A stretch of DNA of 64,000 nt, from assembly GCF_016863555.1 (NCBI RefSeq), contig NZ_BOPC01000013.1, positions 124,001 to 188,000 on the forward strand, given 5' to 3'. The translations under genes and the position numbers were made by a program. Under the pieces are notes generated by a model that worked only from the letters and a program-made list of their open reading frames with translations, made no database searches and had not been told where the DNA came from. Below are positions 1 through 19,978 of this stretch, one piece after another. How positions within the stretch are numbered: the first letter of the stretch is position 1; every line of letters starts with the position of its first letter. Origin of the DNA: Micromonospora qiuiae. GTDB taxonomy: Bacteria > Actinomycetota > Actinomycetes > Mycobacteriales > Micromonosporaceae.

Positions 1-41
1 ACGAGCCGCCCGGCTGGGAAGAGGTGGATCTCTCCACCTGA
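1..41 (+). CDS. 3' end of an unidentified gene (partial)
   Basis: One forward frame enters the window at base 3 and stops at TGA 39-41, giving the tail EPPGWEEVDLST. A hairpin with 7-bp arms (22-28 and 33-39, loop TCTC) overlaps the stop codon, which suits a gene end. The fragment is too short to identify. It converges on the methyltransferase that ends at base 79. Confidence 0.35.
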   Translation, partial: EPPGWEEVDLST

Positions 42-78
42 CGGCGGCCTGCCTGGTGGCGGTGGTCGTGGCGGCGGG

Positions 79-1107: not shown

Positions 1108-1181
1108 CACCGCAGCAGGTCGCAGGCCGGTTCCACGTGCCCGAGCGTACCGAGTGCATCGCCGCGGACTAGGGTCTGGTC

Positions 1182-2261: not shown

Positions 2262-2296
2262 GGGCGACGCGGCAGCGGCGCGTGGGCGGGGAGAAC

Positions 2297-2905
2297 TCAG
2301 CGGGCCTGTGGGTGCCCGGCGGCGAGCAGGCCCGCCACCCGGCGCAGCACGTCCCGGCCACGGGCCGCCTCCGCGCCCAGGCCGGTCTGCCGGCGCAGCA
2401 CCGCCGGCTCCGCGCGCAACAGCGTCAGGCCGCGACGGAGCAGCACCCCGGGCCCCTTACGCTGCTCGGCGAGGTCGCGGGCCAGCCGGCGGAGAAAGGT
2501 CGCGCCGCGCGGTCGCCGCAGGGCGTACGCCCCGGCGAGCAGGCCCCGATGCCGGCATTCCTCGACAATCTCGGCGGCGAATATCCCTTCGGCCACAAAA
2601 AGTGGCGAGTCGGCCAGTTCGAACAGTCGGGTGGCGACCCGGCGATCCTGGTTGATCGCATAGACCGGCACGTCTGCCCGGCCATTCCGGACAAGTTGGG
2701 TAATGACCTCGACAGCGGTCGCCGCATCCCACGAGCCGGGTGACTCCCAGTCGATCTGACCGTTCCGTCGCGGTAACGTTGGGTCATCCCCGTTCTTGTA
2801 AAAATCGTCCAGGCAAAGGACTGGTAACCCAGTTTGTCGAGCTATGTACGACTTTCCGGAGCCGGAGGGGCCGGCAAGTAGCACGACTCTGCGAGGGAAT
2901 TCCAT
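2297..2905 (-). CDS. uridine-kinase-like P-loop protein
   Basis: This 202-residue P-loop protein has a Walker A motif GPSGSGKS at residues 12-19 and the CLDDFYKNGDD stretch typical of the uridine kinase/phosphoribulokinase fold. A segment reading DWESPGSWD follows. The probable role is phosphorylation of a nucleoside or related small molecule. The substrate cannot be read from sequence, and actinobacterial proteins of this size are usually called uridine-kinase-like. It is convergent with add (35-bp gap) and divergent from the conservon. Base composition around 2560-2900 is somewhat less GC-rich than its neighbours. Confidence 0.65.
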   Translation of the reverse strand: MEFPRRVVLLAGPSGSGKSYIARQTGLPVLCLDDFYKNGDDPTLPRRNGQIDWESPGSWDAATAVEVITQLVRNGRADVPVYAINQDRRVATRLFELADSPLFVAEGIFAAEIVEECRHRGLLAGAYALRRPRGATFLRRLARDLAEQRKGPGVLLRRGLTLLRAEPAVLRRQTGLGAEAARGRDVLRRVAGLLAAGHPQAR

Positions 2906-3098
2906 AACTTTCAGTGACTCCGGACAGACGGACCGCGAGCAAATTGCATCAACATCTCATCACACCTCCGGTTGGGGACAACCTGGGCTTTCTCTTTCCC
3001 GGACGGCGTGATGGAATCTCGGATGGTCCGGCCCCGCGGGGTCGGCTGCTAGGCGTTGCCCGAGGCAACGCGGACGCTGCAATCACGAGGGCGGTGAC
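2906..3098. promoter_or_regulatory. divergent intergenic region with a hairpin before cvnA
   Basis: This gap separates the uridine-kinase-like gene from the conservon. It contains an 8-bp stem with a 3-nt loop (GCGTTGCC 3053-3060, CGA, GGCAACGC 3064-3071) that ends 27 nt before the cvnA start. It also holds a weaker GC-rich inverted repeat at about 3029-3046. No clear -35/-10 pair was recognised. Confidence 0.35.
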
Positions 3099-6000
3099 GT
3101 GAGCAAACGGCCGAAGACGGCAGGCTCTTTCCTGTCGCGTCTGCGCCGGCCGGCTGGTCGGCTCCGCGACATGCCGATCTGGTCCAAGCTCGGTCTCATC
3201 ATGATCGTGCCGACCATCGCCACGGTTGTCGTGGGCACCAGCGGCCTGATCGACCACCTGGATTCGCTGAGCAACGCCAACCGGGCCGGCGATCTCGCCG
3301 AGCTCATCGGGCACTCCGGCGCGCTGGTGGACGGCCTCCAGGACGAGCGGACCGCGGCCGTGTTGCTGCTCGGCGTGACGCCGCAGTCGGGCCAGGCCGA
3401 GTCGGAGGAGAAGAAGCGCTACTCCGCCCTCTACACAGAGGTGTCGGCGCGGGTGGACGACGCCAAGGCCCCCTACTCACAGCAGCGGAGTGACCTGAGT
3501 GACCTGCCCGAAAGCCTGGAGACGTTGCTCAACCAGATCAACGAGCGCCTAGGTGACCTACCGGGCACCCGGAGCCAGGTGCTGAACGGCAAGTTCAAGA
3601 TCACCGACGCCCTTCAGTCGTACGACGAACTGATCAACCAGTTGCTCACCGTCCGGGATTCGGCCAGCCAGCTGGCCGGAGACAGCGAACTCAGCGACCG
3701 GATGCGGGCCGCTGCCGCCGTGTCCAGAGAGAAGGAGTGGCTCTCCATCCGCCGGGTGGTGGTGCACCGTGCCCTGATCCAAGGCGGCATGAGTGCCACC
3801 CTGCGGACCGACTACATCTCCAGTGAGACCGGCCAGCAGCAGGCGCAGCAGAGCTTCAACGCGGTGGCCACCGAGGCCGAGTCGGAGTTCCACGCCCAGA
3901 CCATCGGCGGCGGTGACCGCCGGCAGGCCACCATCTACATCAGTCAGGTCAACGCCGACACCTCCGAGAACCTCTCCGGCATCTCGTTCCGACCGGAGCA
4001 GTGGGACGCGGCGCTGGTGGCAAACGCCAAGTTGATCCGGACGGTCGAGTCGAAGTTCGACTCGGACATCGTGGCGCAGGCCGGCGAGATCCGCTCCGGC
4101 GTGCAGCGTCAGGTCTTCCTGGAGACCGGCCTGCTGCTGACCATGTTGCTGCTGGCCATCTTCCTGGCCTACCTGGTCGCCCGCTCGATGGCCCGTTCGC
4201 TGCGCGAGCTCCGCCTGGGCGCGCTCTCCATCGCCCAGTACGGGCTGCCCCACGCGGTGGCCCGGCTGCGTGACCCGCAGGTGACCGGGCAGCTCTCCCC
4301 GGTGCAGTTGGCCAACCAGATCGCCGAGCCGCTGCCGGTGCGCAGCAAGGACGAGTTCGGCCAGGTGACCGAGGCGTTCAACGCGGTCCACCTGGAGGCG
4401 GTCCGCACCGCCGCCGAGCAGGCCGCGCTGCGGGCGTCCGTCGCGACCATGTTCGTCAACCTGGCCCGCCGTTCCCAGATCCTGGTCGACCGGCTGATCG
4501 GGCACCTCGACCGGCTGGAGCGCGGCGAGGAGGACCCGGACCGACTGGCCGAGCTGTTCCAGCTGGACCACCTCGCCACCCGGATGCGGCGCAACGACGA
4601 GAACCTCCTGGTTCTTGCCGGCGCGGACTCGACCCGGGTGCAGCGGGAGCCGGCCGCGCTGATCGACGTGCTCCGTGCCGCCCAGTCCGAGGTAGAGCAC
4701 TACACCCGGATCGAGTTCGGAGTGATCGACCGGGACATAGAGGTCGCCGCGCACGCAGTCAACGACCTGGTCCACCTCGTCGCCGAGCTGTTCGACAACG
4801 CCACCGCCTTCTCGCCGCCGGACTCGCAGGTGCTGGTCGAGGCCCGCCGGGTCGGTGACCGCGCCTCGCTGTACGTCGAGGACCGGGGCATCGGCATCAG
4901 TCCCGAGCAGTTGGCCGACCTGAACGAGCGGCTGGCCACGCCGCCGCAGGTGGACGTCGCCGTCTCCCGGATGATGGGTCTGGTCGTGGTCGCCCGGCTG
5001 GCGTCCCGGCACGCCGTCAAGGTCGAGCTGCGTCAGGGCAGCAGCGATCGGGGCACGGTGGCCGAGGTCGCGCTGCCGCCCACGGTGCTGGTGCCCCGGG
5101 CGCTCTCCGGTCGGGGGCAGCAGCCGCCCGCGCTGTCTGCCGCACCGGCGCCGGTGTCCGGGCCGAACCCGGCGTTCGGTGCGCTGCCTGCGCTGGGTGG
5201 CGGGACGGCTGCGCCAGCGACGCCCGCCCCGCGTCCCGGTGGCTCGGGCAACCAGGTGACCCTGGGCGGCCGATCCTTCGATCCGGCCAGCCGCAACGGT
5301 TCCGGCACGCCGGCCCAGGCGGCGGGCGCGGCAAACCTGCCCGCCTGGTCGGACCTGACCGGCGCCAGCGGGGTCAGCGGCGGGAGCGGCTTCACCCCGC
5401 GCAGCTCCAACGGCCAGCCGACCGATCCGCTGCCGCAGCGCCGGGCCGCTGACGAACCGGCCGTCACCGACCAGCACCCGACCATCCCTCGTCAGTTGCC
5501 GAGCAGCCCCGAGGCCGGGCCGTACGCGCCTTCGGCCTCTTCGTCGCCCCCGATCTCGGGTACGCCCTACTCCGCCCCGCCCGTCTCGGCCGCTCCGGTC
5601 TCCGGCCAGCCCGTGTCGTCCGCTCCGATCTCGGCGGCGCCGATGTCGGGTTCGCCGGTCTCGACGCCGCCCGGTGGTCCGCTGCCGCAGCGGCCCGTCT
5701 CGGCGGCACCCACCGCCGGGCCGGCGAACACGTACGCCGCGGCACCGCCGGCGTGGCCACCGGTCGCCGGGGAGCCGGCCACGCCGCCCGTGCCCGAGCG
5801 GCTGGCCGCCGCGCTGGACATGACCACCGAGCTGCCGCGAGTGCAGCGCCCGGCCGCACCCGCCCGACCCGCCCAGCCGACCATGCCGCAGGCCCAGAAC
5901 CGACAGCGGTACGCGGATGAGACGATGGAGCTGCCGATTTTCCGGGAGCTGGAGTCGGCGTGGTTCCGCACCCGCCGCCCCGGCCCCGAAGAGTCGGCGG

Positions 6001-6569
6001 GTGCCCGGCAGCCGGCGGCGAACGGCGTGACCCAGCAGCTTTCCACGGTCGACAACGCCGGTCGGCCGGCCGTACAGCAGAGTCCGAGTGGGACGACAGG
6101 TAACGAGCCGATGGCAGAGACTCCGACGGCCGCGGGGGCGTCCGGCGGGTACGCGGCGGCAAGCGGTGGTGCCCGCCCAGGCGCCGCCGAGAGCAGCTCC
6201 TCGTACCGCTCGTCGCCGCAGGAGAGTGTGTGGCAGACTGCCGCCGACGACGGCTGGCGGGCGGCCAGCGCCGCCAGTCAGGTGTCGGCTGCGGGAACCA
6301 CCCCGACCGGGCTGCCGAAGCGTACGCCGATGGCCCAGCTCGTTCCGGGTGCGGTAGAAAAGCCGACCACCTCGGTGCAGCGGCGTAACCCGGAGTCGGT
6401 GCGCGGCCTGCTCTCCGCCTACCACCGGGGTGTCCAGCGAGGGCGTAGCAGCAGCCACTCCTCGGACAGCAACCCGACCGGCCCGGAGGAGACTTCGGGC
6501 GGGCAGCAATCCTCGCAGTCTGGCTCAGGCCCGGTGGCCGGGAGCGGGCAGAAGGAGCAAGAAGGATGA
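3099..6569 (+). CDS. cvnA: conservon sensor-kinase-like protein (CvnA)
   Basis: This 1156-residue membrane protein is the histidine-kinase-like member of a conservon. It has a membrane segment at about 30-50, an extracellular alpha-helical region of about 290 residues, a second membrane helix near 341-361 followed by a HAMP-like stretch, and a GHKL ATPase domain with an N-box ([12 protein letters not shown], about 562-573) and DRGIGIS. The segment before the ATPase (NLARRSQ) stands where an ordinary kinase would carry its histidine, so true autophosphorylation is doubtful, as in other CvnA proteins. Residues about 660-1150 are Pro/Ala/Ser-rich and presumably disordered, with SAPVSxxPVS repeats. 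Within the tail lie AWF (about 955), [14 protein letters not shown] (about 1071-1084) and YHRGVQRGR. Start is GTG; the stop overlaps the next ATG. Confidence 0.85.
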
Positions 6570-6970
6570 CTAGTACGCAGGATCTCGGTTGGCTGCTGGC
6601 CAACTTCGCCGATCGGGTGCCCGGTGTCGCGCATGCGGTCGCCGTCTCTGCGGACGGCCTGCTCCTGGCGTCGTCACGCGACCTTCCGCGGGACCGGGCG
6701 GACCAGCTGGCGGCGATCGCCTCCGGGCTGGTCAGCCTTACCCAGGGCGCGGCCCGCTGCTTCGAAGGAGGCGCGGTGCTGCAGACCGTGGTCGAGATGG
6801 ACAACGGCTTCCTGTTCCTGATGTCGATATCGGACGGCTCGTCGTTCGCGGTGCTCGCCGCACGCAGCTGCGACGTCGGGCAGGTTGGTTATGAAATGGC
6901 TCTACTCGTCGACCGGGTGGGCGATGCCCTGACTCCACAGCCACGTACGGCTGTCGGGATGATGGGCTGA
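6566..6970 (+). CDS. cvnB: roadblock/LC7 protein (CvnB)
   Basis: This 134-residue roadblock/LC7-family protein is the second component of the conservon. It is thought to bind the CvnD GTPase and link it to the sensor. Features: the N-terminal [22 protein letters not shown] helix-strand start and the DGLLLASS strand typical of MglB-like folds. It starts within the cvnA stop (ATGA), so the two are translationally coupled. Length and position are exactly those expected from conservons in Streptomyces. Confidence 0.9.
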
Positions 6971-7070
6971 TCGTCGCGCCATCCGGTGAGACGAGTAGGT
7001 CGAGAACACTGCACACGATGGATTGCACCGGTGGAATCCGGTGCCGGGTACGAAGGAGGTGAGCGGCGAC

Positions 7071-7448
7071 ATGACCGATCGTGACGAGCCGACCGGCGCT
7101 CTGGTCCGTCCATACGCCGTGACCCGCGGTCGTACCCGTCCCCGCCTCGACATCGCCCTGGAGGCGCTCGTCGAGACAACGGTGCGCGGTCGGGCCGCTG
7201 CCACAGGCAACGGTGGTCATGGCCGTGAGCACCAGTACATCGCCGCGCTCTGTGACGGACGGGTGCAGTCGCTCGCTGAGATTGCGGCGCGGTTGCAGCT
7301 TCCGCTCGGCGTGGCCCGGGTGCTCATCGCCGACATGGCGACGGACGGCCTGGTCGCGGTCCACGAGCCGACCATTCTGGACGACTCGGACGACGCGGTG
7401 GGCACTGAACTGCTGGAGAGGGTGCTGAGTGGACTTCGCAGGCTCTGA
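7071..7448 (+). CDS. cvnC: DUF742 protein (CvnC)
   Basis: This is the third conservon component, about 125 residues, of the DUF742 family. The family signature is visible as LVRPYAVTRGRTRP near the N-terminus. A winged-helix-like C-terminal part follows (SLAEIAARLQLPLGVARVLIADM). The ATG at 7071 was chosen because it follows a GGAGG at about 7055-7060 and begins MTDRDEP. An upstream in-frame start at 7023 would add unsupported residues. The gene overlaps cvnD by 20 nt. Confidence 0.88.
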   Translation: MTDRDEPTGALVRPYAVTRGRTRPRLDIALEALVETTVRGRAAATGNGGHGREHQYIAALCDGRVQSLAEIAARLQLPLGVARVLIADMATDGLVAVHEPTILDDSDDAVGTELLERVLSGLRRL

Positions 7449-8043
7449 CATGTCGCACCGCCCGCCGACCCCAAGCGGGCGCGTGACGTCGGCGAAGATC
7501 GTTATCGCCGGTGGATTCGGCGTCGGCAAGACGACTCTGGTCGGCTCGGTCTCGGAGATCACGCCGCTGACGACCGAGGCCATAATGACCTCAGCCGGGG
7601 TCGGCGTTGACGACACCCGACAGGTGCCGGGAAAGACGACGACCACGGTGGCCATGGACTTCGGCCGCATTTCGATCGATCGTGACCTGATCCTGTACCT
7701 GTTCGGTACGCCGGGTCAGACTCGGTTCTGGTTCATGTGGGATGAACTGGTCCGGGGCGCGATCGGCGCGGTCGTGCTGGTGGATACCCGTCGTCTGGCC
7801 GACTGCTTCGCGGCGATCGATTTCTTCGAACATCGGCGGCTGCCGTACCTGGTGGCCATCAACTGCTTCGACGGCATGCAATACCACGATCCGCAGGACG
7901 TCCGGGACGCGCTCGCGATCTCCAGCGACGTTCCGGTGGTGGCCTGTGACGCCCGGAACCGGGAGTCGACGAAGCACGTGCTGATCTCGCTGGTCGAGTA
8001 CGTGCTCACCATGCGTCGCTCCCGCGCCGTCGCCCCGGCCTGA
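7429..8043 (+). CDS. cvnD: conservon GTPase (CvnD)
   Basis: This 204-residue small Ras-like GTPase closes the conservon. The P-loop is GGFGVGKT (residues 28-35), a switch region includes VDDTRQVPGKTTTTVAMDFG, and the G3 motif is LFGTPGQ. In family terms it cycles with CvnB and is controlled by the CvnA sensor at the membrane. The GTG start at 7429 has GGAGAGG upstream; ATG 7450 is an alternative. The gene ends at a convergent junction with the lipoprotein gene. Confidence 0.9.
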   Translation: MDFAGSDMSHRPPTPSGRVTSAKIVIAGGFGVGKTTLVGSVSEITPLTTEAIMTSAGVGVDDTRQVPGKTTTTVAMDFGRISIDRDLILYLFGTPGQTRFWFMWDELVRGAIGAVVLVDTRRLADCFAAIDFFEHRRLPYLVAINCFDGMQYHDPQDVRDALAISSDVPVVACDARNRESTKHVLISLVEYVLTMRRSRAVAPA

Positions 8044-8056
8044 CGATCGGTGCCGT

Positions 8057-8085
8057 GCCCGGTGACGCTGCTGTCGACACCGGGC
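8057..8085. terminator. hairpin between convergent cvnD and lipoprotein genes
   Basis: An 8-bp perfect stem (GCCCGGTG 8057-8064 with CACCGGGC 8078-8085) sits 14 nt after the cvnD stop and 31 nt before the stop of the opposing gene. There is no T-run, so this is a candidate bidirectional GC-rich terminator of the actinobacterial kind. Confidence 0.4.
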
Positions 8086-8115
8086 GCTGGTCGCTGTCCG
8101 TGGTGTCCCGGCGGG

Positions 8116-9333
8116 TCAGCTGAGCCGGTTCCAGGCGCCACCGTCCACTCGGTACACACCGAGGGAGTGGCGCTCCATGCCGCTGTGCCGGATCGGGGTG
8201 AAGGAATACAACCCCGCCATCCCGTCGGTGATCTGGTTCTGCAGGTAGGCCCGCAGCCGGCCCCGGTCCACGCTGGCTGCGAGCTTGGCGGCGGTGGTGA
8301 TGATCAGCAGGGCGTCCGAGGCGTACGGCGCGAAGCCGTTGTAGGCACCGTGCCGGCGGACGTACTGCGAGACGAGTTCGCGGTACGCCCGCCCGGTGGC
8401 GCTGCTGTTGGCCAGAGTGGAACCGCCCAACGAGGCCGGATGGATGGCGTAGGCACCCTCGACGGCGGGGGCGTTGTGGCTCTCCAGCGTCTCCTCGGCG
8501 ACTGCCCCGGCGTCGAAGAACAGCCGGCCGGTGAATCCGGCGCTGCGTAGCGCCCGTGCGGCGGCGCCGGAGTTCGGCGCGGTGGCCCACACCACCACTC
8601 CGTCCGTTCGCGCCGCCACGGCCTCCTCAGCGGCCCGCGCGACGCCGTCCTTCGACCGGGGCAGCCGTACCGTTCCGGCGAGCGCGACCCCGGCGGTGCG
8701 CAGGGCCCCGGTCATGGCCCGGGCTCCGGAGTCGCCGTGCAGCCCCTCCTCGGCCAGCAGCACGACCCGGCGCAGCCCTTCGGTGTCGATCACCTGGGCC
8801 AGCCGGCGGGCCACGTCTCCGGCCTCGGGAGTGACCTTGTAGATGAAGGCCCGCTGGGCAAGTGGAACCGTGATCGCATCGCCGAACGCCAACGACACGA
8901 AGGGCAGCCGCAGCTCCTGTGCCACCCCGATGACCGACATCGAGGTCTCCGCGAGCGTGCCGCCGAGCAGGGCGTGCACGTCGTCGCGCCGACCCAGCTC
9001 GGTGGCCTGCCGGGCGGCCAGCCGGGGATCGCTGCGATTGTCCAGCACTTCGAGCCGTACCGTCCGGCGGATGTTGCCGACCATGACACCCTTGGCGTTC
9101 ACGGCCTCCGCGCTGATGGCCAGCGCGCGCTCCTGGGCCACCCCCAGAGCGGCTCCGGGGCCGCTCAGCTCCAGCGTCGCCCCGATGACCAGCTCCGGCC
9201 CGCCGCCGGCCCGGACGGCGGCGGCCTCGGGCTTCCCGTCGCGCCCGCAGGCACCCAGCAGCAGGGTGCCCGCGGCAGCGGCCAGAACCCCCCGCCGGGT
9301 GAGCACGGATGGGCCGCTTGCCGGTGTTGCCAT
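8116..9333 (-). CDS. ABC-type substrate-binding lipoprotein (LivK-like), Tat signal
   Basis: This 405-residue type 1 periplasmic-binding-fold protein resembles the branched-chain amino-acid/amide binding proteins. The N-terminus has a twin-arginine (LTRRGVLAAAAGTLLLGAC) and a lipobox LGAC, so it is probably exported folded and lipid-anchored outside the membrane. The mature part begins PELVIGATLELSGPGAALG, and later HALLGG and VVLLAEEGLHGDSG, as in LivK-like receptors. No permease or ATPase genes adjoin it. It may therefore be a sensor or orphan receptor, perhaps for the neighbouring conservon; that link is only inferred from position. Confidence 0.75.
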   Translation of the reverse strand: MATPASGPSVLTRRGVLAAAAGTLLLGACGRDGKPEAAAVRAGGGPELVIGATLELSGPGAALGVAQERALAISAEAVNAKGVMVGNIRRTVRLEVLDNRSDPRLAARQATELGRRDDVHALLGGTLAETSMSVIGVAQELRLPFVSLAFGDAITVPLAQRAFIYKVTPEAGDVARRLAQVIDTEGLRRVVLLAEEGLHGDSGARAMTGALRTAGVALAGTVRLPRSKDGVARAAEEAVAARTDGVVVWATAPNSGAAARALRSAGFTGRLFFDAGAVAEETLESHNAPAVEGAYAIHPASLGGSTLANSSATGRAYRELVSQYVRRHGAYNGFAPYASDALLIITTAAKLAASVDRGRLRAYLQNQITDGMAGLYSFTPIRHSGMERHSLGVYRVDGGAWNRLS

Positions 9334-9460
9334 GACTCGCCTTCCCGCCCGGCGACCTGCCGCCGGTCGTTCCGCGGGTATGCTCCCGGCCCCTGCGACC
9401 CGGCGTCAAATTATCGGGGTGTGGGCCTAAACACGCAGGTGAGCGGGGGTGCGGGGGCCG

Positions 9461-11776
9461 TCAGGAGCGGTAGCCGGCAGAGCGGTATTCATACTCCCGA
9501 TCGTCGTCGCGGTCACCGGTGTCCCGGCTGAAGTCCCAGCCGCCGGCCGACTCCCGCCCCGGGCGGCCACCGACCGCGAACCCGCCGATCTCCTGCCCCC
9601 GGCGCCAGCCGCGGAAGTAGCCGGTGGTGTTCTCGGCCAGGCTGGCCGCGTCCCGAACGATGCGCAGTGGACGTTCCTCGCGCAGCGGAGACCCGGGCAC
9701 GAGATTGGCCTGCGGCACACGCTTGGGCAGACCGGCTGGGGTCTCGGCCCCCACCGCCGGGCGGGCCGCCTGCTCGGCGGCCTGCCAGCCGCTGTCGGCC
9801 AGGGACGACCAGTCCAGATCCGAGTCCTCCCCGTGCCCGACGAACCAGGCCGACCTGGCCTGGGCGAAGATCAGCAGGTCGCCGTCACCCTCGTCGGAGA
9901 CCGGTGGCGGTCGGCGCTCGACCGGCGGCTCCGGCCGGCGTGACGGCGGCGTGACGTCCAGCCGCTCGGCGGGCCGGTCACTGCGCTCTGTGCCCTCCCG
10001 ATTCACCAGGCGCAGCGGCGGGGTGTCCAACTGCGATTCCGCCCCGGTGCGCAGTGCCCGGTCGGCCAGCGGCGGGGGCTCGACCAGCCGCAGCACCGGC
10101 GGCTCCGGCGGTAGGTCGTCAGCGAGCCACGGCGGGGTCACCCTGCGCTCGGCGGTGGGATCGTCGGCCGGTGAGTCGGCGGCCGCCCGCCGGGCGCCCT
10201 CGTAGGGACCGGCGGGCGGGTTGTTCGCCGGGCTCTCGGCCGGACTCTCCGGGTTGTTGACCAGCGGCCAGTTCGCCCGGGAACCGGGCGCGGGTAGCTC
10301 CTGGCCGGGCCGGGACGTCGGCATCGGGATGCTCAGGTCGGTGGCGCTGAAGCCGCCCGTCGGTGCCGGTGGTTCACCGTTCGTCTTCGGTCGCGACGGT
10401 ATGACGGTGCGTTGGCGTTCGGCGCGGGCGCTGTTGATCGCCGCGGTGGTGAGGGTCGGCCGGAACGGTTCGCCCGCCTCGGCGGGCGGCACCGAGCCGC
10501 GCTGCGCGGGCGCGATCGGGGTGATCCCGGGCGGAGGCGGCGGTGGCGCGGAGATCGGCCGGTTGGTCGGGCCGTCGATCCGCGACGGGAGGGGCTCGGG
10601 TCGCGACGGCGGCGCCGAGACGGGCGGACCGGCGGCCGCGGCCGGCGCCACCGGAGCGGGTGCGACCGGCGGCGGGGTGACCGGGGCGGGCGCCACCGGC
10701 GGCGGACCCATCGGTCGGGGCGACGGAGGCGTCCCGCTTCCCGGCACCGGCTCGGGTCGGCTGCGGCGCCCACCGCTCGGCTCGGGCCCGGCGGGACGCA
10801 CCGCACGCAGACCGGTCCCGGGACCGGCGGTCGACAGCTCACCGGCTGGCTCACCGTGCCGGTCGACGGCCCGCCGGCCGGGCAACTGCACCGGCGCGGT
10901 GCGGGCGTGCAACGCGCCGACCAGCGCCTGGCAGCCGGCGTCACAGGCGCGTACGGAGGCGACCGCCTGTCGGATCGTCTCGGCCGCAGCAGAGGTGAGG
11001 GCCCGGTTGACCGCGGACCGACGGGGGGTTTCGGCGATCGCCACTCGCAGGGCGGTCACGGCCTCGTCGATCGCGTCGGCGTCGCCCAAGCCGTCGGCCG
11101 CGAGCTGAGCGGCGACGGCGTCGGCGGTGACCGCGGCGTCGCGGCCGCGGGCGGCATCGGTGAGCATTCCCGGGTCGGGGAGGACGTCCAGCACGGCCAG
11201 CGGAATCAGGTCGGCGGGGTCGGGATAGGCGCGCAGCGCGGCCGGGTAGAGCTCGCGGAGCACCTCGCGGAGCGCGACCGCGGCGGCGTGCCGCCCGCTG
11301 GTCAGCGCCGCATGCGCCGCGAGCACCTGCTTGTAGCCGGCGAGGTCCCGGGGCGCCGGTAGGGTCACCGCCGACAGCGCGCCCGCCTGTAGCGCGCGGG
11401 CCAGGCCCACGGCCCGGCGTACGGCCGGCGGCGACTGCATCTCCTCGATCGAATCGTCATCAGCGAACCGTTCGGCGAAGTCGTCGACCGAGTCGTCGTC
11501 GGCGATCGCCAAGGGGCGCCCGGCGGCGCTGAGCAGAGAAGTGACGCTGTGATCGTCGCTGTCGGCGGCTATCGCCGCGCCGCTCGGCCCGCCGGAGCGT
11601 TCCACGAGCAGCGTGACCAGCCGGGCGTAGCCCGCCGGGTCGTCGCCGACCTCGCAGACATGCAGCAGACGGCCTGCGTCGTCGACCACAGCGGACGTCA
11701 GCGCCGAACCGGCCGGAGCCGATCGGTCGGCCGGATCCGCCGAGGCCAGACCGCAGTACACGCGCACGAGCGCCAC
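9461..11776 (-). CDS. chimeric protein: degenerate IS110-transposase-like N-domain with a CvnA-like tail
   Basis: This 771-residue protein is not a standard family member I can name. Residues about 1-300 follow the layout of IS110-type transposases: SAVVDDAGRLLHVCEVGDD, a mid LARALQAGAL segment, a long helix (SGRHAAAVALREVLRELYP) and VGALHARTAP. The acidic catalytic positions look lost: GLA instead of GID at the first site, and PPAVRRA where the Asp pair is expected. Residues about 300-620 are Pro-rich. The C-terminus repeats motifs of the CvnA tail in the same order: LLIFAQARSAWF (about 630), DSGWQAAEQAA, GLPKRVPQANLVPG (about 679-692) and GYFRGWRRGQ (about 717). Start is GTG with GGAGGGAGG upstream. 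No inverted repeats flank it. A regulatory or adaptor role is more likely than transposition. Confidence 0.55.
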   Translation of the reverse strand: MALVRVYCGLASADPADRSAPAGSALTSAVVDDAGRLLHVCEVGDDPAGYARLVTLLVERSGGPSGAAIAADSDDHSVTSLLSAAGRPLAIADDDSVDDFAERFADDDSIEEMQSPPAVRRAVGLARALQAGALSAVTLPAPRDLAGYKQVLAAHAALTSGRHAAAVALREVLRELYPAALRAYPDPADLIPLAVLDVLPDPGMLTDAARGRDAAVTADAVAAQLAADGLGDADAIDEAVTALRVAIAETPRRSAVNRALTSAAAETIRQAVASVRACDAGCQALVGALHARTAPVQLPGRRAVDRHGEPAGELSTAGPGTGLRAVRPAGPEPSGGRRSRPEPVPGSGTPPSPRPMGPPPVAPAPVTPPPVAPAPVAPAAAAGPPVSAPPSRPEPLPSRIDGPTNRPISAPPPPPPGITPIAPAQRGSVPPAEAGEPFRPTLTTAAINSARAERQRTVIPSRPKTNGEPPAPTGGFSATDLSIPMPTSRPGQELPAPGSRANWPLVNNPESPAESPANNPPAGPYEGARRAAADSPADDPTAERRVTPPWLADDLPPEPPVLRLVEPPPLADRALRTGAESQLDTPPLRLVNREGTERSDRPAERLDVTPPSRRPEPPVERRPPPVSDEGDGDLLIFAQARSAWFVGHGEDSDLDWSSLADSGWQAAEQAARPAVGAETPAGLPKRVPQANLVPGSPLREERPLRIVRDAASLAENTTGYFRGWRRGQEIGGFAVGGRPGRESAGGWDFSRDTGDRDDDREYEYRSAGYRS

Positions 11777-11841
11777 GGCGATCGTCCTCCCTCCGGGACA
11801 CAGGGCTTCCTCTGCCAGAGACTGATGCTCCCTGGTGCGGG

Positions 11842-12780
11842 TCAGTCGCGCCAGTCCACGACCGCAGAGATCTTCCCGACAATGGTCCGCCAGCCCAGAC
11901 TTGCGGTTTGTGCCCCGATTTTCTTCAATCGACGACGACCCATGAATCCGCCGATCCCGCCATTGATCGACGCCCGCAGCGCCTCGTCCAGATCATCGAG
12001 GCTGGAGCCGCTGGAGAGCATGTCGAGCACGGCGGGCAGGCGCAACGCGTACGCCACGTCGCGGGCCACCTCGCCAGCCTCGATGAGCAGCGTCGGATCC
12101 CAGCTGTCGTGCCCGCCGCGGAGGTTTTCCACCACGAGATCGAGCTCGTAGACGTCCTCGTCGCGCGGCGCGATGTCGGCCGGTTCCACCCGTTCGGACA
12201 ATTCATTCCAACTGTCCAGCTGAGACAGATCGTTGGGTGCGCCGGAACGGACGAAGCTCACCAGCGACTCGGGGGTCTTGAACAACAGCAGTCGGCCCCG
12301 GTGGCTCAGGAATACCGGCACTTCCTCGTCGCCGGCCTCGTCGGCCGCCTTCGTGTCGGCGTCATCTTCGTCGGCGTCGCTCTCCTCGGCGTCGCCCTTT
12401 TCGGCGTCACCCGCGCCGCGTCCGGCGGGCTTCTCCTCGTCGTCGCTCTCGGCGAACTCCCGGGCGACCTCATCGTCGAGGATCACCACTTCGCCGTCCT
12501 CGTCGTCCTCGGCCTCCACCACCTGACGGCGGGCCAGGAAGGGGTCGTCGGCGTCGCGTTCGGCCACATCGGTCGGAGTCAGCTCACGGGCCGGGCGGTA
12601 CGCCCGCAGGGTGTAACCGGTGCCGGCGGGCAGGGCGATCTCCACCGGGTCGATCCGCAGCTCGTCCCAGAGCGCGCGGGCCGCGTCGGCCGACGCGGCG
12701 GCGTCCGGCTCGGCGGGACCGCTCGTGTCATCGAGCTCTGGCTCGTCGGCGTCCGGCCGTTCAGGCGACTGGCGGGCCAC
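11842..12780 (-). CDS. acidic conserved protein of unknown function
   Basis: About 312 residues with no recognised enzyme motif. The N-terminal half is strongly acidic, including a low-complexity D/E/A block (about residues 105-165 of this product). A folded part follows (VFLSHRGRLLLFKTPESLVSFVRSG, then a helical region) and a basic glycine-containing end (GGIGGFMGRRRLKKIG). GTG 12780 was chosen because GGAGGT lies 4 nt upstream; a longer in-frame start at 12846 lacks this support. It lies on the same strand as, and 65 nt upstream of, the chimeric protein gene, so the two may be co-transcribed. Confidence 0.6.
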   Translation of the reverse strand: MARQSPERPDADEPELDDTSGPAEPDAAASADAARALWDELRIDPVEIALPAGTGYTLRAYRPARELTPTDVAERDADDPFLARRQVVEAEDDEDGEVVILDDEVAREFAESDDEEKPAGRGAGDAEKGDAEESDADEDDADTKAADEAGDEEVPVFLSHRGRLLLFKTPESLVSFVRSGAPNDLSQLDSWNELSERVEPADIAPRDEDVYELDLVVENLRGGHDSWDPTLLIEAGEVARDVAYALRLPAVLDMLSSGSSLDDLDEALRASINGGIGGFMGRRRLKKIGAQTASLGWRTIVGKISAVVDWRD

Positions 12781-12903
12781 GGTGACCTCCGTGTGCGTCG
12801 GGCTTGCCCACCCACTGGCGCGGTGCCGGTGGGTGACTCTGGGCACATACCCTAGTTGGCTGCGCTGGGTAACGGGGGCCGGCCCCGGTGGCGGCGTCGC
12901 CCC

Positions 12904-12925
12904 TTGACAGGTAGCTTGTCTACCT
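12904..12925 (+). promoter_or_regulatory. TTGACA box and GGTAG-N5-CTACC palindrome before padR
   Basis: A TTGACA hexamer (12904-12909) abuts a palindrome (GGTAG 12910-12914, CTACC 12920-12924) that runs up to the ATG of the PadR gene. The position suggests an autoregulatory operator. The same half-sites with the same 5-nt spacing occur upstream of cydA at 19910-19924. Confidence 0.5.
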
Positions 12926-13267
12926 ATGAACGCCCAGGCGCTGCACGGACACCTCGACGCACTGCTGCTCGCCGTGCTCGAGCGGGGCGCCCTGCACGGC
13001 TACGCCATCATCGAGGCGTTGCGGGCCCGCAGCGACGGCCGGCTCGACCTGGCCACCGGCACGGTCTACCCGGCCCTGCGGCGGCTGGAGCGGGCCGGCC
13101 ACGTGGCCAGCGCCTGGAGCACGGTCAACGGCCGTGAACGGCGCACCTACGAGCTGACCGACGCGGGCCGACGCGCGCTGGCCGATCAGCGGTCGGGATG
13201 GCGTGAGTTCAGCGCGACCGTCGCCCGTTTCCTCGACTCGGGGCCCTCGTCCGCGCCGGCAGGCTGA
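12926..13267 (+). CDS. PadR-family transcriptional regulator
   Basis: This 113-residue winged-helix repressor has the PadR pattern: LLAVLERGALHGYAIIEAL, then GTVYPALRRLERAGHV and RRTYELTDAGRRAL. The family binds DNA as a dimer and is often paired with a membrane protein that carries a permease-prefix domain. Such a gene follows here in convergent orientation. The ATG directly follows a palindrome, so the transcript may be nearly leaderless or repressed by its own product. Confidence 0.88.
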   Translation: MNAQALHGHLDALLLAVLERGALHGYAIIEALRARSDGRLDLATGTVYPALRRLERAGHVASAWSTVNGRERRTYELTDAGRRALADQRSGWREFSATVARFLDSGPSSAPAG

Positions 13268-13351
13268 TCGGCGTTGCTCACTCATCCGCGTCGGGCGGGC
13301 TGATCGGCGCTGATCACTCGGCCGTGCCGGCGGGCTGATCGACGTTGCTCA
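13259..13351. repeat. three imperfect direct repeats at a convergent junction
   Basis: The unit GGCTGATCGRCGYTGMTCA occurs three times (starting at about 13262, 13301 and 13334). The first copy supplies the TGA stop of padR, and the last overlaps the stop of the opposing membrane gene. Each unit contains the arms TGATC and GATCA or close variants. Possible function as a transcription end signal is only inferred. Confidence 0.45.
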
Positions 13352-14023
13352 GCGGACGGCGAGCAGCCAGGTGTGCGCCGCCCGGCCCAGCCAGACATGG
13401 GCGGCTCCGGCGGCGAGCATGCCGACGATCATCGGTGGCCAGGTGAGCGCCGCGTCCCAGAGCAGGATCGACCAGCCGAACAGTGCCGCACCGGTCAACG
13501 CGCCCAGCACGGCGGCAGCGGTCAACAGACCGCCCACCGCGTGGGCGAGCGTGGTGAGCGCGGGTCGGGGCGAGCGCGCGGTCGCCGCCACGAGCACCAG
13601 ACCGGCCGCGCCGAGCAGGAACGCCATCGCCCAGATCCACTCCACCGACTGCGACACCAGCAGGTAGCCCGCGGGCGGTGGCGGACCCTCGCCGCTCCAG
13701 CTCGACCCCTGCCAGGTCAGGTCGCCGGCGAGCGCGGTGGCGCCGGCGAAAGCGAGGATCCGCAGCGACAGTCCGCGTAGCGCCGCCACCGCCAACTCGG
13801 CCTGGTACGCCGGGGCGAGTTGCTCCGGCGTACCGAAATCGGCGACCGCGCGCCGGGCGGCCTCGTGGGCGGGCAGACCACCATCCCGGTACGCCTCGAC
13901 GGCGTCCAGCAGCCCGTGCCGCGCCTCGGTCATGAGATCCGCCCGCACCCGGCGTGGCCCACGTAGTCGGCCGGCCAACTGCCGCAGGTGCTCGTCGACC
14001 AACACGTCATCCCGGACCGGCAT
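13349..14023 (-). CDS. PadR-associated membrane protein (permease-prefix type)
   Basis: About 224 residues. The N-terminal 75 residues form the permease-prefix helical region (DEHLRQLAGRLRGPRRVRADLMTEARHGLLDA, then ARRAVADFGTPEQLAPAYQAEL). Four to five membrane helices follow. The start MPVRDD at 14023 is preferred over an upstream ATG that adds 12 residues. In this family the gene usually lies beside a PadR regulator, which may respond to its state. The transported or sensed ligand is unknown. It converges with padR and has the same orientation as cydC. Confidence 0.65.
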   Translation of the reverse strand: MPVRDDVLVDEHLRQLAGRLRGPRRVRADLMTEARHGLLDAVEAYRDGGLPAHEAARRAVADFGTPEQLAPAYQAELAVAALRGLSLRILAFAGATALAGDLTWQGSSWSGEGPPPPAGYLLVSQSVEWIWAMAFLLGAAGLVLVAATARSPRPALTTLAHAVGGLLTAAAVLGALTGAALFGWSILLWDAALTWPPMIVGMLAAGAAHVWLGRAAHTWLLAVR

Positions 14024-14125
14024 GCGTCCCACCCTGCCACCCAGCGCAAGCGGATTCACCAGGGGTTGCCCCGGATCTTGGTGCGAAAGTGCCCCCGGAG
14101 GGGCGCTCCCGCACGAAGATCCGTT

Positions 14126-15931
14126 CTAGGCGGAGCGGGTGGAGAGTGCCAGGTAGCCGTGCTCGGCGGCCTGCTGGAGCAGCCACTGGTCGCGGTACCA
14201 GCCGGCAGTCGCGACCAGATCGGCGTGCCGGCCGCGTTGGACGATTCGACCGGCGTCCAGTACCACGATCTCGTCCAGCTCGGCGAGACCGCTGAGCCGA
14301 TGGGAGATCAGCAGCACCGAGTGCCCGGCCGGCACAGCGGCGAGGGCGCCGGCGAGCACCTCGTCGGCGGCGACCGGGTCGAGGCCCTCGGTCGGCTCGT
14401 CCAGCACCAGCACCGCGGGCGCCGCGAGCAGCGCCCGGGCCAGCGCGAGCCGCTGTCGCTGGCCGCCGGAGAGCTGCCCGCCCTGCTCGCCGACCACGGT
14501 GCCCCAGCCCTCCGGCTGGTCCCGGACCCAGTCCGCCAACCCGGCCGCGTCCGCCGCCCCGGTGAGCGCCGCCTCGTCGGCGCCGGCACGGCCGAGCAGC
14601 AGGTTGTCCCGGACCGAGGCGTGGAAGACGTACGCCTCGGCGAGCAGCCCGCCGACCAGCCGCGGCAACACGTCGGGCGGGAAACTCGACACGTCCCGTC
14701 CGTCCAGGGTCACCCGGCCACTGTCGGGATGTACCGCGCCGGTCAGGACGGCGGCCAGGCTGCTCTTGCCCGCGCCGCTGGGCCCGACGACCGCCACCCG
14801 GTGGCCGGGCGGCAGGTCGAGGTCGAAGTCGTCCAGCGCGGCGGGGGCACCGGCCCGGTACCGGACGGTGACCCGCTCGAACCGCACGTCCGGCGCGCCG
14901 GCAACCACGTCGCCCGCCGCCACGTCGCCCGCAACCACTGCCCGACCCGCCTGCGGCCCGGCCTGCGGGGCGGTCTCCGGCCCGGTCTGCGGGCCGGGAG
15001 CCACGAGCCGGGCGATCCTGACCAGGCCGGTGCGCAGCCCGGTCCACTGCCGAGCGGCACCGACCAGCGCGAGGGCGATCTCCACCGCGGCCAGCGTGCC
15101 GACCGCCAGGACGCCGACCAGCACCCCGTCCAATCCGGCGCGAAGCGCGACGAGCACCACCGCACCGGCGGTCACCCCGGCCACCAGGACCCCGGCGGCA
15201 TCGACGGCGAAACCGAGCGCGGCGAGCCGGCGCTCCAGCCGAGCCAGCCGGCGGGCCCGCCGACCGGCGGCGCCGAGCGCATCGCCGGTGGCGCCGAAGG
15301 CGGCCAGATCGGCGGCGCCGTGGGTCAGGTCGACGGCGTCGGCGGCGAGTGCGCCACGCAGCGGGGCCACCTCCGCACCGGCCCGCCGGGTGAGGAGGGT
15401 GGCCAGTACCGGCAGTGCCACCCCGGCCAGTAGCAACCCACCGGTGAGAACGAGCGCGGCCGGCGGGGAGACGAGCGCGGTCAGGCCGACCGCCAGTACG
15501 CTCACCAGCCCGGCCGCCGCGCCCGGGACGAGTACGCGCAGCAGCAGGTCCTGCACCGCCTCCACGTCGGAGACCAGCCGACTCAGCGCGTCACCGGTGC
15601 GTGGCGGCGCGCCGCGTCGTTCGGCCAGCGTGGCGAAGACCCGGGTGCGTACGTCGGTGACGAGGCGGAGCACCGCGTCGTGACCGGCGAGCCGTTCGGT
15701 GTAGCGCAGCACGCCCCGGCCGACGGCGAGCGCCCGCACCGCGACGATCGCCACGGTGAGGCGGTCCAGCGGCGGTTGACCGGCGGCGGTCATCAGCAGC
15801 CAGGTCGCGGTGGCCATCAGGGCCAGCCCGGCGAACTCGGTGGCGGCGGCGAGCAGTCCGGCGCCGACCAGCCGTTTCAGGTACGGCCGGGCCAAACGCA
15901 GCACCGTCAGCTCGGGTGAGGGACCGCTCAT
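14126..15931 (-). CDS. cydC: ABC exporter subunit CydC (cytochrome bd assembly)
   Basis: About 601 residues: an N-terminal six-helix membrane domain and a C-terminal ATPase with Walker A GPSGAGKSS, signature LSGGQRQRLALARA and Walker B VLVLDEPTEGLD. CydDC exports cysteine/glutathione-type thiols and is needed for assembly of cytochrome bd. The start ATG overlaps the cydD stop by 4 nt (ATGA). A Pro/Gly/Thr-rich low-complexity linker with PQTGPETAPQ-like repeats separates the two domains. It ends the cyd operon. Confidence 0.9.
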   Translation of the reverse strand: MSGPSPELTVLRLARPYLKRLVGAGLLAAATEFAGLALMATATWLLMTAAGQPPLDRLTVAIVAVRALAVGRGVLRYTERLAGHDAVLRLVTDVRTRVFATLAERRGAPPRTGDALSRLVSDVEAVQDLLLRVLVPGAAAGLVSVLAVGLTALVSPPAALVLTGGLLLAGVALPVLATLLTRRAGAEVAPLRGALAADAVDLTHGAADLAAFGATGDALGAAGRRARRLARLERRLAALGFAVDAAGVLVAGVTAGAVVLVALRAGLDGVLVGVLAVGTLAAVEIALALVGAARQWTGLRTGLVRIARLVAPGPQTGPETAPQAGPQAGRAVVAGDVAAGDVVAGAPDVRFERVTVRYRAGAPAALDDFDLDLPPGHRVAVVGPSGAGKSSLAAVLTGAVHPDSGRVTLDGRDVSSFPPDVLPRLVGGLLAEAYVFHASVRDNLLLGRAGADEAALTGAADAAGLADWVRDQPEGWGTVVGEQGGQLSGGQRQRLALARALLAAPAVLVLDEPTEGLDPVAADEVLAGALAAVPAGHSVLLISHRLSGLAELDEIVVLDAGRIVQRGRHADLVATAGWYRDQWLLQQAAEHGYLALSTRSA

Positions 15932-17592
15932 CGGACCTCCCCGGCCGGCGCGAGTTCGGTGACCCGACCGTCGGCGACCCGCAGGACGCGGTCGACGCCC
16001 TTGAGCAGCGCGGGCCGGTGCGCGACCAGCAGCGCGGTGCGGCCGGTGACCAGTCGGTGGGTGGCCGACAGCACCGCCTCCTCGGCGGCGGCGTCGAGGC
16101 GCGCGGTCGGTTCGTCGAGCAGGACCACCGGCGCGTCCCGTAGGAACGCCCGGGCCAGGGCCACCCGCTGCCGTTGCCCGCTGGACAGGCCATGCCCGCG
16201 CTCGCCCAGCCTGGTGTCCAGCCCCTCGGGCAGCGCGGCGACCACGTCGTCGAGGGCGGCGTCCCGGACCGCGGCGGCGATCTGGGCCGGTTCGGCGTCG
16301 GGGGTGCCGAGCCGGATGTTGTCGGCCAGCGACGTGGCGAACAGGTGCGCCCGCTGCGGCACCCAGGCCACCTGCCGGCGCCAGCCCTCCAGTTCGGCGT
16401 CGGCGAGATCGACCCCGCCGACGGTGACCCGGCCGCTGGTCGGTGCCACGAAGCCGAGCAGCAGGTTCAGCAGCGTGCTCTTGCCGGCACCGCTCGGGCC
16501 GATGACCGCGATCCGCTCGCCCGGCCGGATCGTGAGCGTGACGTCCCGCAGTGCGGTGGTGCGCTCGTACGCGACGGTCACCGACTCGAACCGGATCTCG
16601 CCGCGCCCGTCGGGCAGCGCCCCGGTGCGGCCGGTCGGTGCCGGCGCGGAGCCGGAGAGGGTGAGCGCCTCGTCCAGTGCGGTGAGCCCCTCCATGCTGG
16701 CGTGGAACCGACTGCCGGCCGCCCGCAGCGGCAGGTACGCCTCCGGGGTGAGCAGCAGCACCAGCAGCGCGGTCTGCAGGGTCAGCCCGCCGCCGAGCAG
16801 CCGGACGCCCACCGGCACCGCGACCAGCGCCACCGACAGGGTGGCGACGAGTTCCAGCACCAGCGCGGAGAGGAACGCGATGCGCAGCGTCTTCATGGTG
16901 GATACCCGGTGACCGTCGGCCATCCGGCGTACCGCCTCGGTCTGGGACCGGGCGCGGCCGAAGGCCCGCAACGTGGGCAGCCCGGCCACCATGTCCAGGA
17001 AGTGCCCACCCAGCAGGGACAGCCGCCGCCACTGGCGTTCGGTGGCGGCCTGGGCCTGCCAGCCGAGCAGCGCCCCGAAGACCGGGATGAGCGGCAGGGT
17101 CAGCGCGATGATCACCGCCGAGCTCCAGTCGGCGAGGAAGATCCGGCCCAGCACGGCGAGCGGCACGGTGACGCTCAGCACGAGCTGCGGCAGGTATCCG
17201 GTGAAGTACGCGTCCAGGGCGTCCAACCCGCGACCGGCGAGGGTGGCCAGTTGCCCGGCCCGCTGCCCGGCGACCCAGCCCGGCCCGTGCCGGGCCACCG
17301 CGCCGAGCAGGTCGGCCCGGAGCGCGGCCTTGACCGTGGCGGCCAGCCGTGCCGACACCGCGCCCTGCGCCCAGACCAGCACCGACCGGGCCGCCACGGC
17401 GGCCACGAAGCCGGCCAGCGCGGCCCGGTCGAGCCGCCCGGCGAACGCCGTGGCCAGCAGCGTCGCCAGAGCGGTGGCCTGCGCGACGATCAGCCCGGCG
17501 GCGAGCAGACCGAGCAGCGCGAGCAGGACGAGGTCACGTCGGGCCGCGGGGACCCGGCGTAGCAGCCGCGGGTCGAAGGGGCGGCGGTTCAC
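15928..17592 (-). CDS. cydD: ABC exporter subunit CydD (cytochrome bd assembly)
   Basis: This 554-residue partner of CydC has six membrane helices and an ATPase with Walker A GPSGAGKST, signature LSSGQRQRVALARA and Walker B VVLLDEPTARLD. Start ATG overlaps the end of cydB by 4 nt, and its own stop overlaps cydC, so cydB-cydD-cydC are translationally coupled. The heterodimer sits in the cytoplasmic membrane. Confidence 0.92.
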   Translation of the reverse strand: MNRRPFDPRLLRRVPAARRDLVLLALLGLLAAGLIVAQATALATLLATAFAGRLDRAALAGFVAAVAARSVLVWAQGAVSARLAATVKAALRADLLGAVARHGPGWVAGQRAGQLATLAGRGLDALDAYFTGYLPQLVLSVTVPLAVLGRIFLADWSSAVIIALTLPLIPVFGALLGWQAQAATERQWRRLSLLGGHFLDMVAGLPTLRAFGRARSQTEAVRRMADGHRVSTMKTLRIAFLSALVLELVATLSVALVAVPVGVRLLGGGLTLQTALLVLLLTPEAYLPLRAAGSRFHASMEGLTALDEALTLSGSAPAPTGRTGALPDGRGEIRFESVTVAYERTTALRDVTLTIRPGERIAVIGPSGAGKSTLLNLLLGFVAPTSGRVTVGGVDLADAELEGWRRQVAWVPQRAHLFATSLADNIRLGTPDAEPAQIAAAVRDAALDDVVAALPEGLDTRLGERGHGLSSGQRQRVALARAFLRDAPVVLLDEPTARLDAAAEEAVLSATHRLVTGRTALLVAHRPALLKGVDRVLRVADGRVTELAPAGEVR

Positions 17593-18596
17593 CAGTACAC
17601 CGGCGCTCTACTGTCTGTCCGTCCCCGGAAAATCCACCAGCACATCGCCTGGAAGCCTAGTAGGGCCGGCAGCAGCGGCAGCGCCAGCCAACCCAGCAGG
17701 CGTAGTGTCGGGGCGCTCGCCGCCGCGTCGGCCACCGTCAGGGACGCTGCCGGGTCGACGGTCGACACCAGCACGTACGGCCACAGGGTCGCGCCGACCA
17801 GCACGACCGGCAGCGCGAGGGCGGCGGCGGTGGCGGCGAAGGCCACCCCGTGCCGCCGCCGGCCGAGCGCCGCCCGTGCCAGCAGCAGGGCCGCGACCAG
17901 CGACACCCCCAGCAGTACGCCGACCGCGGGGCGTTGCGCGGCGCCGCGTACCCGATCGGAGAGCAGGCCGACGGCGGCGGCCGCGGCGACCGCGATGATC
18001 GCGACAACGATCAGCCGGCGGGCCAGCGGCCGGAGCCGGTCGCCCTCGGTGGCCGGCAGTCGCAGGGCGAGGAAGGCCGCACCGTGCGCGGCGACCAGGG
18101 CGACCACGGCCAGCGCGGTGGCGGCGGCGAACGGAGTGAACAGGTGCGCCACCCCGGCCACGTGGCCGTCGGCGTGCAGCGGTACGCCCTGGAGAAGCCC
18201 GGCGAGCACGGTGCCCCAGCCGAGCGCGGCGAGCAGGCTGCCCACCGTGATCGCCCGGTCCCAACCGGCCCGGGCCCACCGGCTGGCCGGCCGGCTGCGC
18301 AGCTGCACCCCGGCGGTCACCAGGATCACCCCGGCCAGCGCACCCAGCACGGCCGGATAGCTGCCGGCGAGCAGTTCCCCCTCCAACAGAGGGAATGCGC
18401 CGAACAGGATGCCCACGGCGGCCACCAGCCACACCTCGTTGCCGAGGAAGAACGGCCCGACCGCGTTGAGGGCCGCCCGCCGCCGGGCGGGATCGGCGCC
18501 GCGCGCGAGCAGCAGCCCGACGCCGTAGTCGTAGCCGCCGAGCACCAGGTATCCGGCGAAGAAGAGGCCGAGCAGGGCGTACCAGGCGAGTTCCAT
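17589..18596 (-). CDS. cydB: cytochrome bd ubiquinol oxidase subunit II
   Basis: This 335-residue protein with about nine membrane helices starts MELAWYALLGLFFAGYLVLGGYDYGVGLLL, the family's typical N-terminus with the GGYDYGVG motif. It forms the structural partner of CydA in the high-affinity terminal oxidase. It begins 10 nt after cydA. Confidence 0.93.
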   Translation of the reverse strand: MELAWYALLGLFFAGYLVLGGYDYGVGLLLARGADPARRRAALNAVGPFFLGNEVWLVAAVGILFGAFPLLEGELLAGSYPAVLGALAGVILVTAGVQLRSRPASRWARAGWDRAITVGSLLAALGWGTVLAGLLQGVPLHADGHVAGVAHLFTPFAAATALAVVALVAAHGAAFLALRLPATEGDRLRPLARRLIVVAIIAVAAAAAVGLLSDRVRGAAQRPAVGVLLGVSLVAALLLARAALGRRRHGVAFAATAAALALPVVLVGATLWPYVLVSTVDPAASLTVADAAASAPTLRLLGWLALPLLPALLGFQAMCWWIFRGRTDSRAPVYW

Positions 18597-18606
18597 GGCG
18601 GTCTCC

Positions 18607-19863: not shown

Positions 19864-19904
19864 GGCCAGCTCTCCTGGGGTGGGGGCCTGATTTAGTAGG
19901 GAGG

Positions 19905-19924
19905 CTACCGGTAGGCAACCTACC
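19905..19924 (-). promoter_or_regulatory. palindromic operator candidates upstream of cydA
   Basis: Two overlapping perfect palindromes are visible: CTACCGGTAG (19905-19914) and GGTAGG-CAA-CCTACC (19910-19924). The latter matches the padR upstream site in half-sites and spacing (GGTAG-N5-CTACC). The position 41-61 nt before the cydA ATG suits repression or activation. PadR or BlaI are candidate binders; neither is proven. Confidence 0.45.
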
Positions 19925-19978
19925 TATAGGGTGTCGCGCGGCCCGATCCCGGGAAGATCAGGGTCAGTTCAGGGTGGC

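Follow-up and report, generated by a model that had tools for sequence, protein, structure and literature searches.

An IS110-derived protein with a conservon sensor tail beside a conservon of Micromonospora qiuiae

Has a transposase domain become part of a bacterial G-protein signalling system? The question is raised by gene X (9461..11776, minus strand), which lies beside a conservon in a 64,000-nucleotide stretch of Micromonospora qiuiae (NCBI RefSeq assembly GCF_016863555.1, contig NZ_BOPC01000013.1, positions 124,001 to 188,000), the whole of which we call the window. X starts at a GTG codon and encodes 771 residues. An IS110-derived N-domain (residues 1 to 289; 10910..11776) is followed by a variable Pro-rich linker (9890..10909) and by a tail of the type carried by the conservon sensor CvnA (residues 630 to 771; 9464..9889), all on the minus strand. 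We consider this architecture, and the origin that it implies, close to certain, and the evidence points to a mobile element that has been taken up into G-protein signalling in bacteria.

Domain architecture of X

X shares homology with IS110 transposases over its first ~275 residues, which correspond to their RuvC and coiled-coil parts. In one pairwise hhalign test, 25 X N-domains matched 16 IS110 transposases over 255 columns, corresponding to X residues 4 to 274, with a probability of 98.8 and an E value of 8e-17. The Pfam family DEDD_Tnp_IS110 (PF01548) was matched by 16 of 25 diverse X N-domains at E values of 1 or below (best, 1.1e-10); an orthologue in genome G012 scored 42.8 bits, above the Pfam cut-off of 29, and two further orthologues scored 26.5 and 23.0 bits, below it. 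The N-domain of the window protein itself reached an E value of 0.12, and scans with the full-length window protein gave no match in Pfam or NCBIfam. NCBIfam IS110 models were matched by 2 of the 25 N-domains (best E, 2.2e-8). A profile built from X picked up IS110 transposases in other families of the order (best E, 4.0e-26, for a protein of 419 residues), with identical copies among the matches: three of 414 residues in one genome (G334) and four of 443 residues in another (G221). Judging from the profile alignment, which extends to residue 274, the coiled-coil region that follows RuvC appears to be present as well. The IS110 layout that the original prediction had seen in the N-terminal 300 residues is thus borne out by hhalign and by Pfam matches of family members.

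Whether the N-domain might instead be a RuvC- or YqgF-like domain unrelated to IS110 was considered with the help of an AlphaFold2 model, which is of modest quality (predicted local distance difference test [pLDDT] score, 63; predicted template modeling score, 0.48). The proposed fold is supported in that RNase-H-like strand order was modelled and that the top VIA-align matches were the bridge-RNA recombinases ISCro4 (Z 10.9 over 171 residues; root mean square deviation, 15.8) and IS621 (Z 10.7 over 118 residues; 3.0 Å). Foldseek also ranked ISCro4 first, with a weak E value of 0.013. YqgF-like domains of Spt6 and Tex reached Z scores of 8.1 to 10.1 against the same model, which puts the highest of them level with the IS110 proteins, and an hmmsearch of PDB sequences placed ISCro4 and IS621 first at E values of only 0.17 and 0.23, beside a chance match at 0.28. 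Because of the tie with Spt6, the structure gives the fold and not IS110 identity by itself, and the assignment is owed to the sequence profiles. These match IS110 specifically, from RuvC through the coiled-coil region, and contradict a generic RuvC domain, a reading that we reject as very improbable.

Does the N-domain still work as a recombinase? We aligned 47 X proteins with 28 IS110 proteins, 12 of which had been chosen because the X profile found them. Each of the four DEDD columns is acidic in 27 of the 28 IS110 proteins. Among the X proteins, the first column is never D (A in 40, T in 4, V in 2, and S in 1), the third is D in 4 and E in 3, and the fourth is D in 3 and R in 38, whereas the second is acidic in 44 of 47 (D72 in the window protein). 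The predicted loss of the DEDD residues therefore holds for the first position and, in most proteins, for the third and fourth, but the second has been kept. The serine-bearing Tnp domain is also absent, with the Pro-rich linker and the CvnA tail in its place. In work on IS621 (PMC11208158), mutation of D11, E60, D102, D105, or S241 is described as abolishing IS621-mediated activity.

The N-domain has also become acidic. The median isoelectric point is 4.64 (4.48 to 7.78) in the 47 X proteins versus 9.07 (6.08 to 10.67) in 27 IS110 proteins, and the median net charge per 100 residues is -4.8 versus +1.0, which argues against DNA or RNA binding. It could still be imagined that the domain binds nucleic acid, either DNA or an RNA derived from bridge RNA, and that X in this way supplies the conservon with a nucleic-acid signal or a DNA-tethered location. 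In favour of this, X retains both the RuvC and the coiled-coil part, along with basic positions in the coiled-coil region: K or R is found at residue 162 in 46, at residue 170 in 40, and at residue 182 in 41 of the 47 proteins, and R is the commonest residue at these positions in IS110 as well. However, the reversal of charge and the loss of the Tnp domain speak against this possibility, as does the lack of any Rfam match in window positions 1 to 20000, a scan that included no dedicated search for bridge RNA, and we regard it as unlikely.

At the other end of the protein, the last ~140 residues are homologous to the tail of CvnA (about residues 944 to 1115; about 5928..6443, plus strand). The window X and the window CvnA tail share 42% identity over 74 residues (E 1e-10 in a single comparison), and a second, weak segment spans the IF..SAWF motif (E 0.058). 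The most recognisable motif of the X tail is GLPKRVPQANLVPG (residues 682 to 695; 9692..9733, minus strand). With the DxGW pattern loosened, the motifs IF..WF, DxGW, and GLPxR occur in this order in 36 of 49 CvnA proteins, in 102 of 105 X proteins (kept from 130 for their length and an LxIF-type motif, which was thus preselected), and in none of 786 control frames. The controls came from six-frame open frames of at least 300 residues, many of them not genes, from the window and 52 loci; 63 frames that matched the tail profile (21 X and 42 in conservon loci) were not counted among them. Single motifs do occur in controls, GLPxR alone in 33 of the 786. A common actinobacterial motif was rejected as an explanation of the tail on the basis of the ordered motifs, and the claim that the CvnA motifs recur in order in X was confirmed, although the two tails lie about 3 kb apart and not 5 kb as first stated.

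A profile of 17 X tails, searched against the window's own genome, found the neighbouring CvnA tail (E 8e-18), a tail on contig C17 (1.4e-17), and four weaker matches (3.5e-11 to 0.0014). Across the class, the X-tail profile matched at E values of 0.001 or below in 53 of 148 genomes. All 20 non-X tail loci chosen for inspection carry a CvnA-type kinase core and cvnB. The 59 tail loci listed, best first, comprise 49 in which the tail adjoins cvnB (in 38 of these the 1.5-kb flank also shows the kinase), 8 X loci, and 2 unclassified loci (L194 and L201) that score 162 to 164 bits, like X tails. Apart from X, the loci checked showed the tail only in CvnA-type loci, ahead of cvnB, which, together with the motif census, supports its specificity. 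The original prediction had named the fold and the specificity of the tail as possible grounds for refutation, and it withstood both tests. The CvnA tail has no Pfam family: among 17 tails scanned, the two matches had E values of 0.099 and 0.18. AlphaFold2 predicts the X tail to be disordered (pLDDT 47) although its sequence is conserved. As a side observation, genome G000 holds 11 roadblock genes but only 6 non-X tail matches; at some of its roadblock loci, CvnA apparently either lacks this tail or is missing.

Distribution and selection

X is present in 148 of 150 sampled genomes of the family, mostly as one copy per genome, and the two genomes without a match are drafts of 780 and 440 contigs. 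Named relatives that carry it are Micromonospora, Verrucosispora, Phytohabitans, and Asanoa. Rather than behaving as a mobile multicopy element, it occupies a fixed place beside the upstream gene that we call next, which was found in 119 of 120 X loci. In seven of seven pairs, the ratio of nonsynonymous to synonymous substitution rates (dN/dS) was 0.06 to 0.09 for the tail, 0.09 to 0.19 for the N-domain, and 0.20 to 0.34 for the linker. X is under purifying selection, and by this measure the tail is its most constrained part.

These observations bear on whether X is merely a decaying IS110 remnant whose open frame has persisted by chance. The window's own genome does carry IS110 copies and fragments (4 matches). 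However, near-universal presence, fixed synteny, dN/dS well under 1, and the conserved tail contradict a relic, the probability of which we put at practically nil; near-universal, mostly single-copy presence, synteny, and dN/dS instead support the domesticated transposase of the original prediction. Frames that end early were found in three loci (L055, 378 residues; L110, 506 residues; L297, 383 residues) and may reflect either a frameshift in the linker or an assembly error.

In the genomes searched, nothing comparable to X turned up outside the family. With up to 10 candidates scored per genome, all matches above 240 bits in 249 genomes of the order (family included) fell in the family, the best other match scoring 93 bits; in 246 genomes of the class, the best other match scored 108 bits (E value of 1e-10 or below). 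Fifteen of these outside matches were inspected by eye and are IS110 transposases, one of them truncated (L327) and one with a longer chance open frame (L326). One genome of the family (G073) carries a second, long-branched copy of X with a tail (L130:8094-9521), with no next, CvnB', or conservon nearby.

Gene neighbourhood

What does X work with? Synteny was counted in 120 X loci, 92 of which have at least 6.5 kb of downstream sequence; most of the 120 are from Micromonospora, and the counts are not independent. Directly behind X, on the same strand, 15 of the 92 loci carry a cvnB-like gene, which we call cvnB', mostly in deep lineages. Its product is a roadblock protein, with Robl_LC7 matched in seven of seven proteins scanned (best E, 1.9e-19). 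A tree of 14 of the 15 CvnB' proteins and 39 conservon CvnB proteins unites the former in a separate clade (100/100). Of 14 junctions between X and cvnB' examined, five show a 4-bp overlap of stop and start; the start follows within 15 bp in five and at 118 bp in one, and three were unresolved by pattern. The 4-bp overlap resembles that of cvnA and cvnB in the window (6566/6569). On the X tree, the bearers of cvnB' are the deep branches plus one further locus (L294), a distribution that fits an operon present in the ancestor and lost afterwards. Where cvnB' follows, the two genes make up a module without a kinase, in which X takes the place of cvnA. The full gene order A-B-C-D was not encountered with X in that place: none of the 21 loci listed has cvnC or cvnD on the X strand. 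A search for CvnB' outside the family in 118 class genomes gave matches of at most 115 bits, on ordinary CvnB, in a search that had no positive control (its two family genomes lack CvnB').

Three other loci (L254, L257, and L258) carry a CvnA-type kinase with the tail and cvnB, and the window's queries found no cvnC or cvnD within about 13 kb of them. These are possible two-gene A-B systems, parallel to X-CvnB'.

The pairing with CvnB' also bears on what the tail does. Instead of docking CvnB, it might be a localisation or assembly signal, directed to the membrane, the pole, the cytoskeleton, or another shared factor, with X as its second client. Conservation of the tail despite its predicted disorder would fit such a signal, as would its retention in crown lineages that lack CvnB'. 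Against this stand the non-X tail loci checked, which adjoin cvnB (20 of 20 chosen, and all those listed that are neither X nor unclassified and X-like), and the CvnB' that X has of its own in deep lineages. We therefore judge a localisation signal rather unlikely.

In the window, X faces a complete conservon (3099-8043) that is convergent to it. On the plus strand, cvnA (3099..6569) encodes a sensor kinase with NIT, HAMP, and HATPase_c domains; cvnB (6566..6970) encodes a roadblock/LC7 protein, and its ATG overlaps the cvnA stop by 4 bp; cvnC (7023..7448) encodes a DUF742 protein; and cvnD (7429..8043) encodes a small GTPase. Between the conservon and X lies a gene for a periplasmic-binding protein (8116..9333, minus strand). 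Among the 92 loci, the X tail is present in 92, a convergent cvnD in 87, and the periplasmic-binding protein gene in 36. The same genome has a homologue 30% identical to this periplasmic-binding protein beside another conservon (L253:10127-11200, contig C17).

Five loci have no adjacent conservon: L117 and L118 (group g12), L124 and L125 (group g4), and L130, the second copy in G073. In the genomes of the first four (G012, G050, G004, and G083), a cvnD 80 to 82% identical lies elsewhere. When 12 genomes were searched, a copy 79 to 82% identical was present in all five g4 and four g12 genomes, in two pieces in G050. This distant cvnD is on the same contig as X, 140 kb to 5 Mb away, in G004, G083, G050, and G070 and on another contig in G012, G086, G066, and G097; G046 was left out of this placement, as its X position was not listed.

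Upstream of X on the same strand, at a distance of 65 bp, gene next (11842..12846, minus strand) encodes an acidic protein of 334 residues. Its C-terminal half weakly matches mycobacterial SatS (NF050072, E 4e-10; 39 bits against a cut-off of 700). In 10 loci from other families of the order, no conservon or X was found within 11.5 to 16 kb of next, and a pre-fusion locus was not found.

Proposed role and comparison with known systems

The reading that we favour, and that on balance seems somewhat better than an even bet, is that X is a captured and disarmed IS110 protein that became a soluble scaffold, docking CvnB-type roadblock proteins and tuning the CvnD GTPase. No later than the root of the family, a duplicate of CvnA with a CvnB of its own behind it would have received the RuvC and coiled-coil part of an IS110 transposase ahead of its linker and tail. 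The product would have been an operon next-X-cvnB' that faced a complete conservon. The catalytic centre and the serine domain have been lost, and the tail and the putatively dimer-forming part have been retained. The coiled coil of IS621 mediates dimerisation, as described in PMC11208158, and X may dimerise through the region that it has kept. X would then stand in for CvnA as a soluble dimer that has no kinase part, and a roadblock protein could dock on each of its two flexible tails: CvnB' in deep lineages and, in trans, a conservon CvnB in Micromonospora. By competing with CvnA or complementing it, X could help set the nucleotide state of CvnD.

The steps of this reading differ in strength. 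If the motifs of the two tails dock a common partner, as the original prediction proposed, CvnB is the best candidate, since deep lineages have a cvnB-like gene that belongs to X, and CvnA9 is described as able to interact with CvnB9 and CvnC9 in PMC8510531; the tail probably binds a CvnB-type protein. That X acts as a surrogate or competitor of CvnA is a more tentative proposal, slightly short of even odds. Several points weigh against the reading as a whole. Confidence in the N-domain model is modest, and the IS110 matches of the model are tied, by VIA-align's own rule, with Spt6 at Z 10.1. The root of the X tree rests on a long IS110 outgroup branch. Window positions 7991-9480 contain no significant roadblock remnant (best E, 0.12), and CvnB' is missing from most crown genomes, the window included, so that the partner there must act in trans. 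The adjacency of tail and cvnB in CvnA loci may be mere operon order, and the partner of the tail could be CvnC, CvnD, or a factor outside the conservon. A bolder version, in which X-CvnB' is a kinase-less conservon whose sensor kinase was replaced by a disarmed RNA-guided recombinase, strikes us as distinctly unlikely; a Ras-like GTPase switch would then be under the control of a domain that formerly read a bridge RNA and might even now have an RNA ligand.

The resemblances of X are divided among several known systems. Like the IS110 transposases and bridge-RNA recombinases (IS621 and ISCro4), X has RuvC and coiled-coil homology over ~255 columns and the same fold in the model. Unlike them, it lacks DEDD except for the second acidic position and lacks the Tnp serine domain; it is mostly single copy at a fixed place, acidic, and fused to a linker and CvnA tail. 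Like CvnA, X has the homologous C-terminal tail behind a Pro-rich linker, and in 15 of 92 loci a roadblock gene comes next; 5 of the 14 such junctions examined show a 4-bp overlap, like that of cvnA and cvnB in the window. Unlike CvnA, it has a dead transposase domain in place of the sensor and kinase parts: a Pfam scan of the full-length window protein gave no NIT, HAMP, or HATPase_c match, and no hydrophobic segment is present (maximum Kyte-Doolittle value of 1.2 versus 2.4 in CvnA). X thus gives the CvnA tail a second, kinase-free bearer, and a soluble, kinase-less protein with a roadblock partner makes it testable how CvnA signals to CvnB, CvnC, and CvnD.

As an extra protein linked to a conservon, X also recalls the accessory proteins CvnE (P450) and CvnF (GAF). 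These accompany CvnA proteins that lack sensory domains, as described in PMC13343842, in the main text of which the words transposase, C-terminal, and tail are absent. X bears a CvnA tail, unlike CvnE and CvnF, and its neighbouring CvnA has a NIT sensory domain; the Pfam scan found no P450 or GAF domain in X, and membership in either group was rejected. In the open-licence literature, judged at the level of search results, we found no IS110 domestication of this kind and no link between conservons and transposases.

Host-transposase fusions in eukaryotes arise when a transposase domain is captured in frame by a host gene, and they usually keep the DNA-binding domain for use in transcription. 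In X, by contrast, the captured domain has turned acidic and is linked to a GTPase system. If our reading is true, X would exemplify, in bacteria, the capture of a transposase by a signalling protein.
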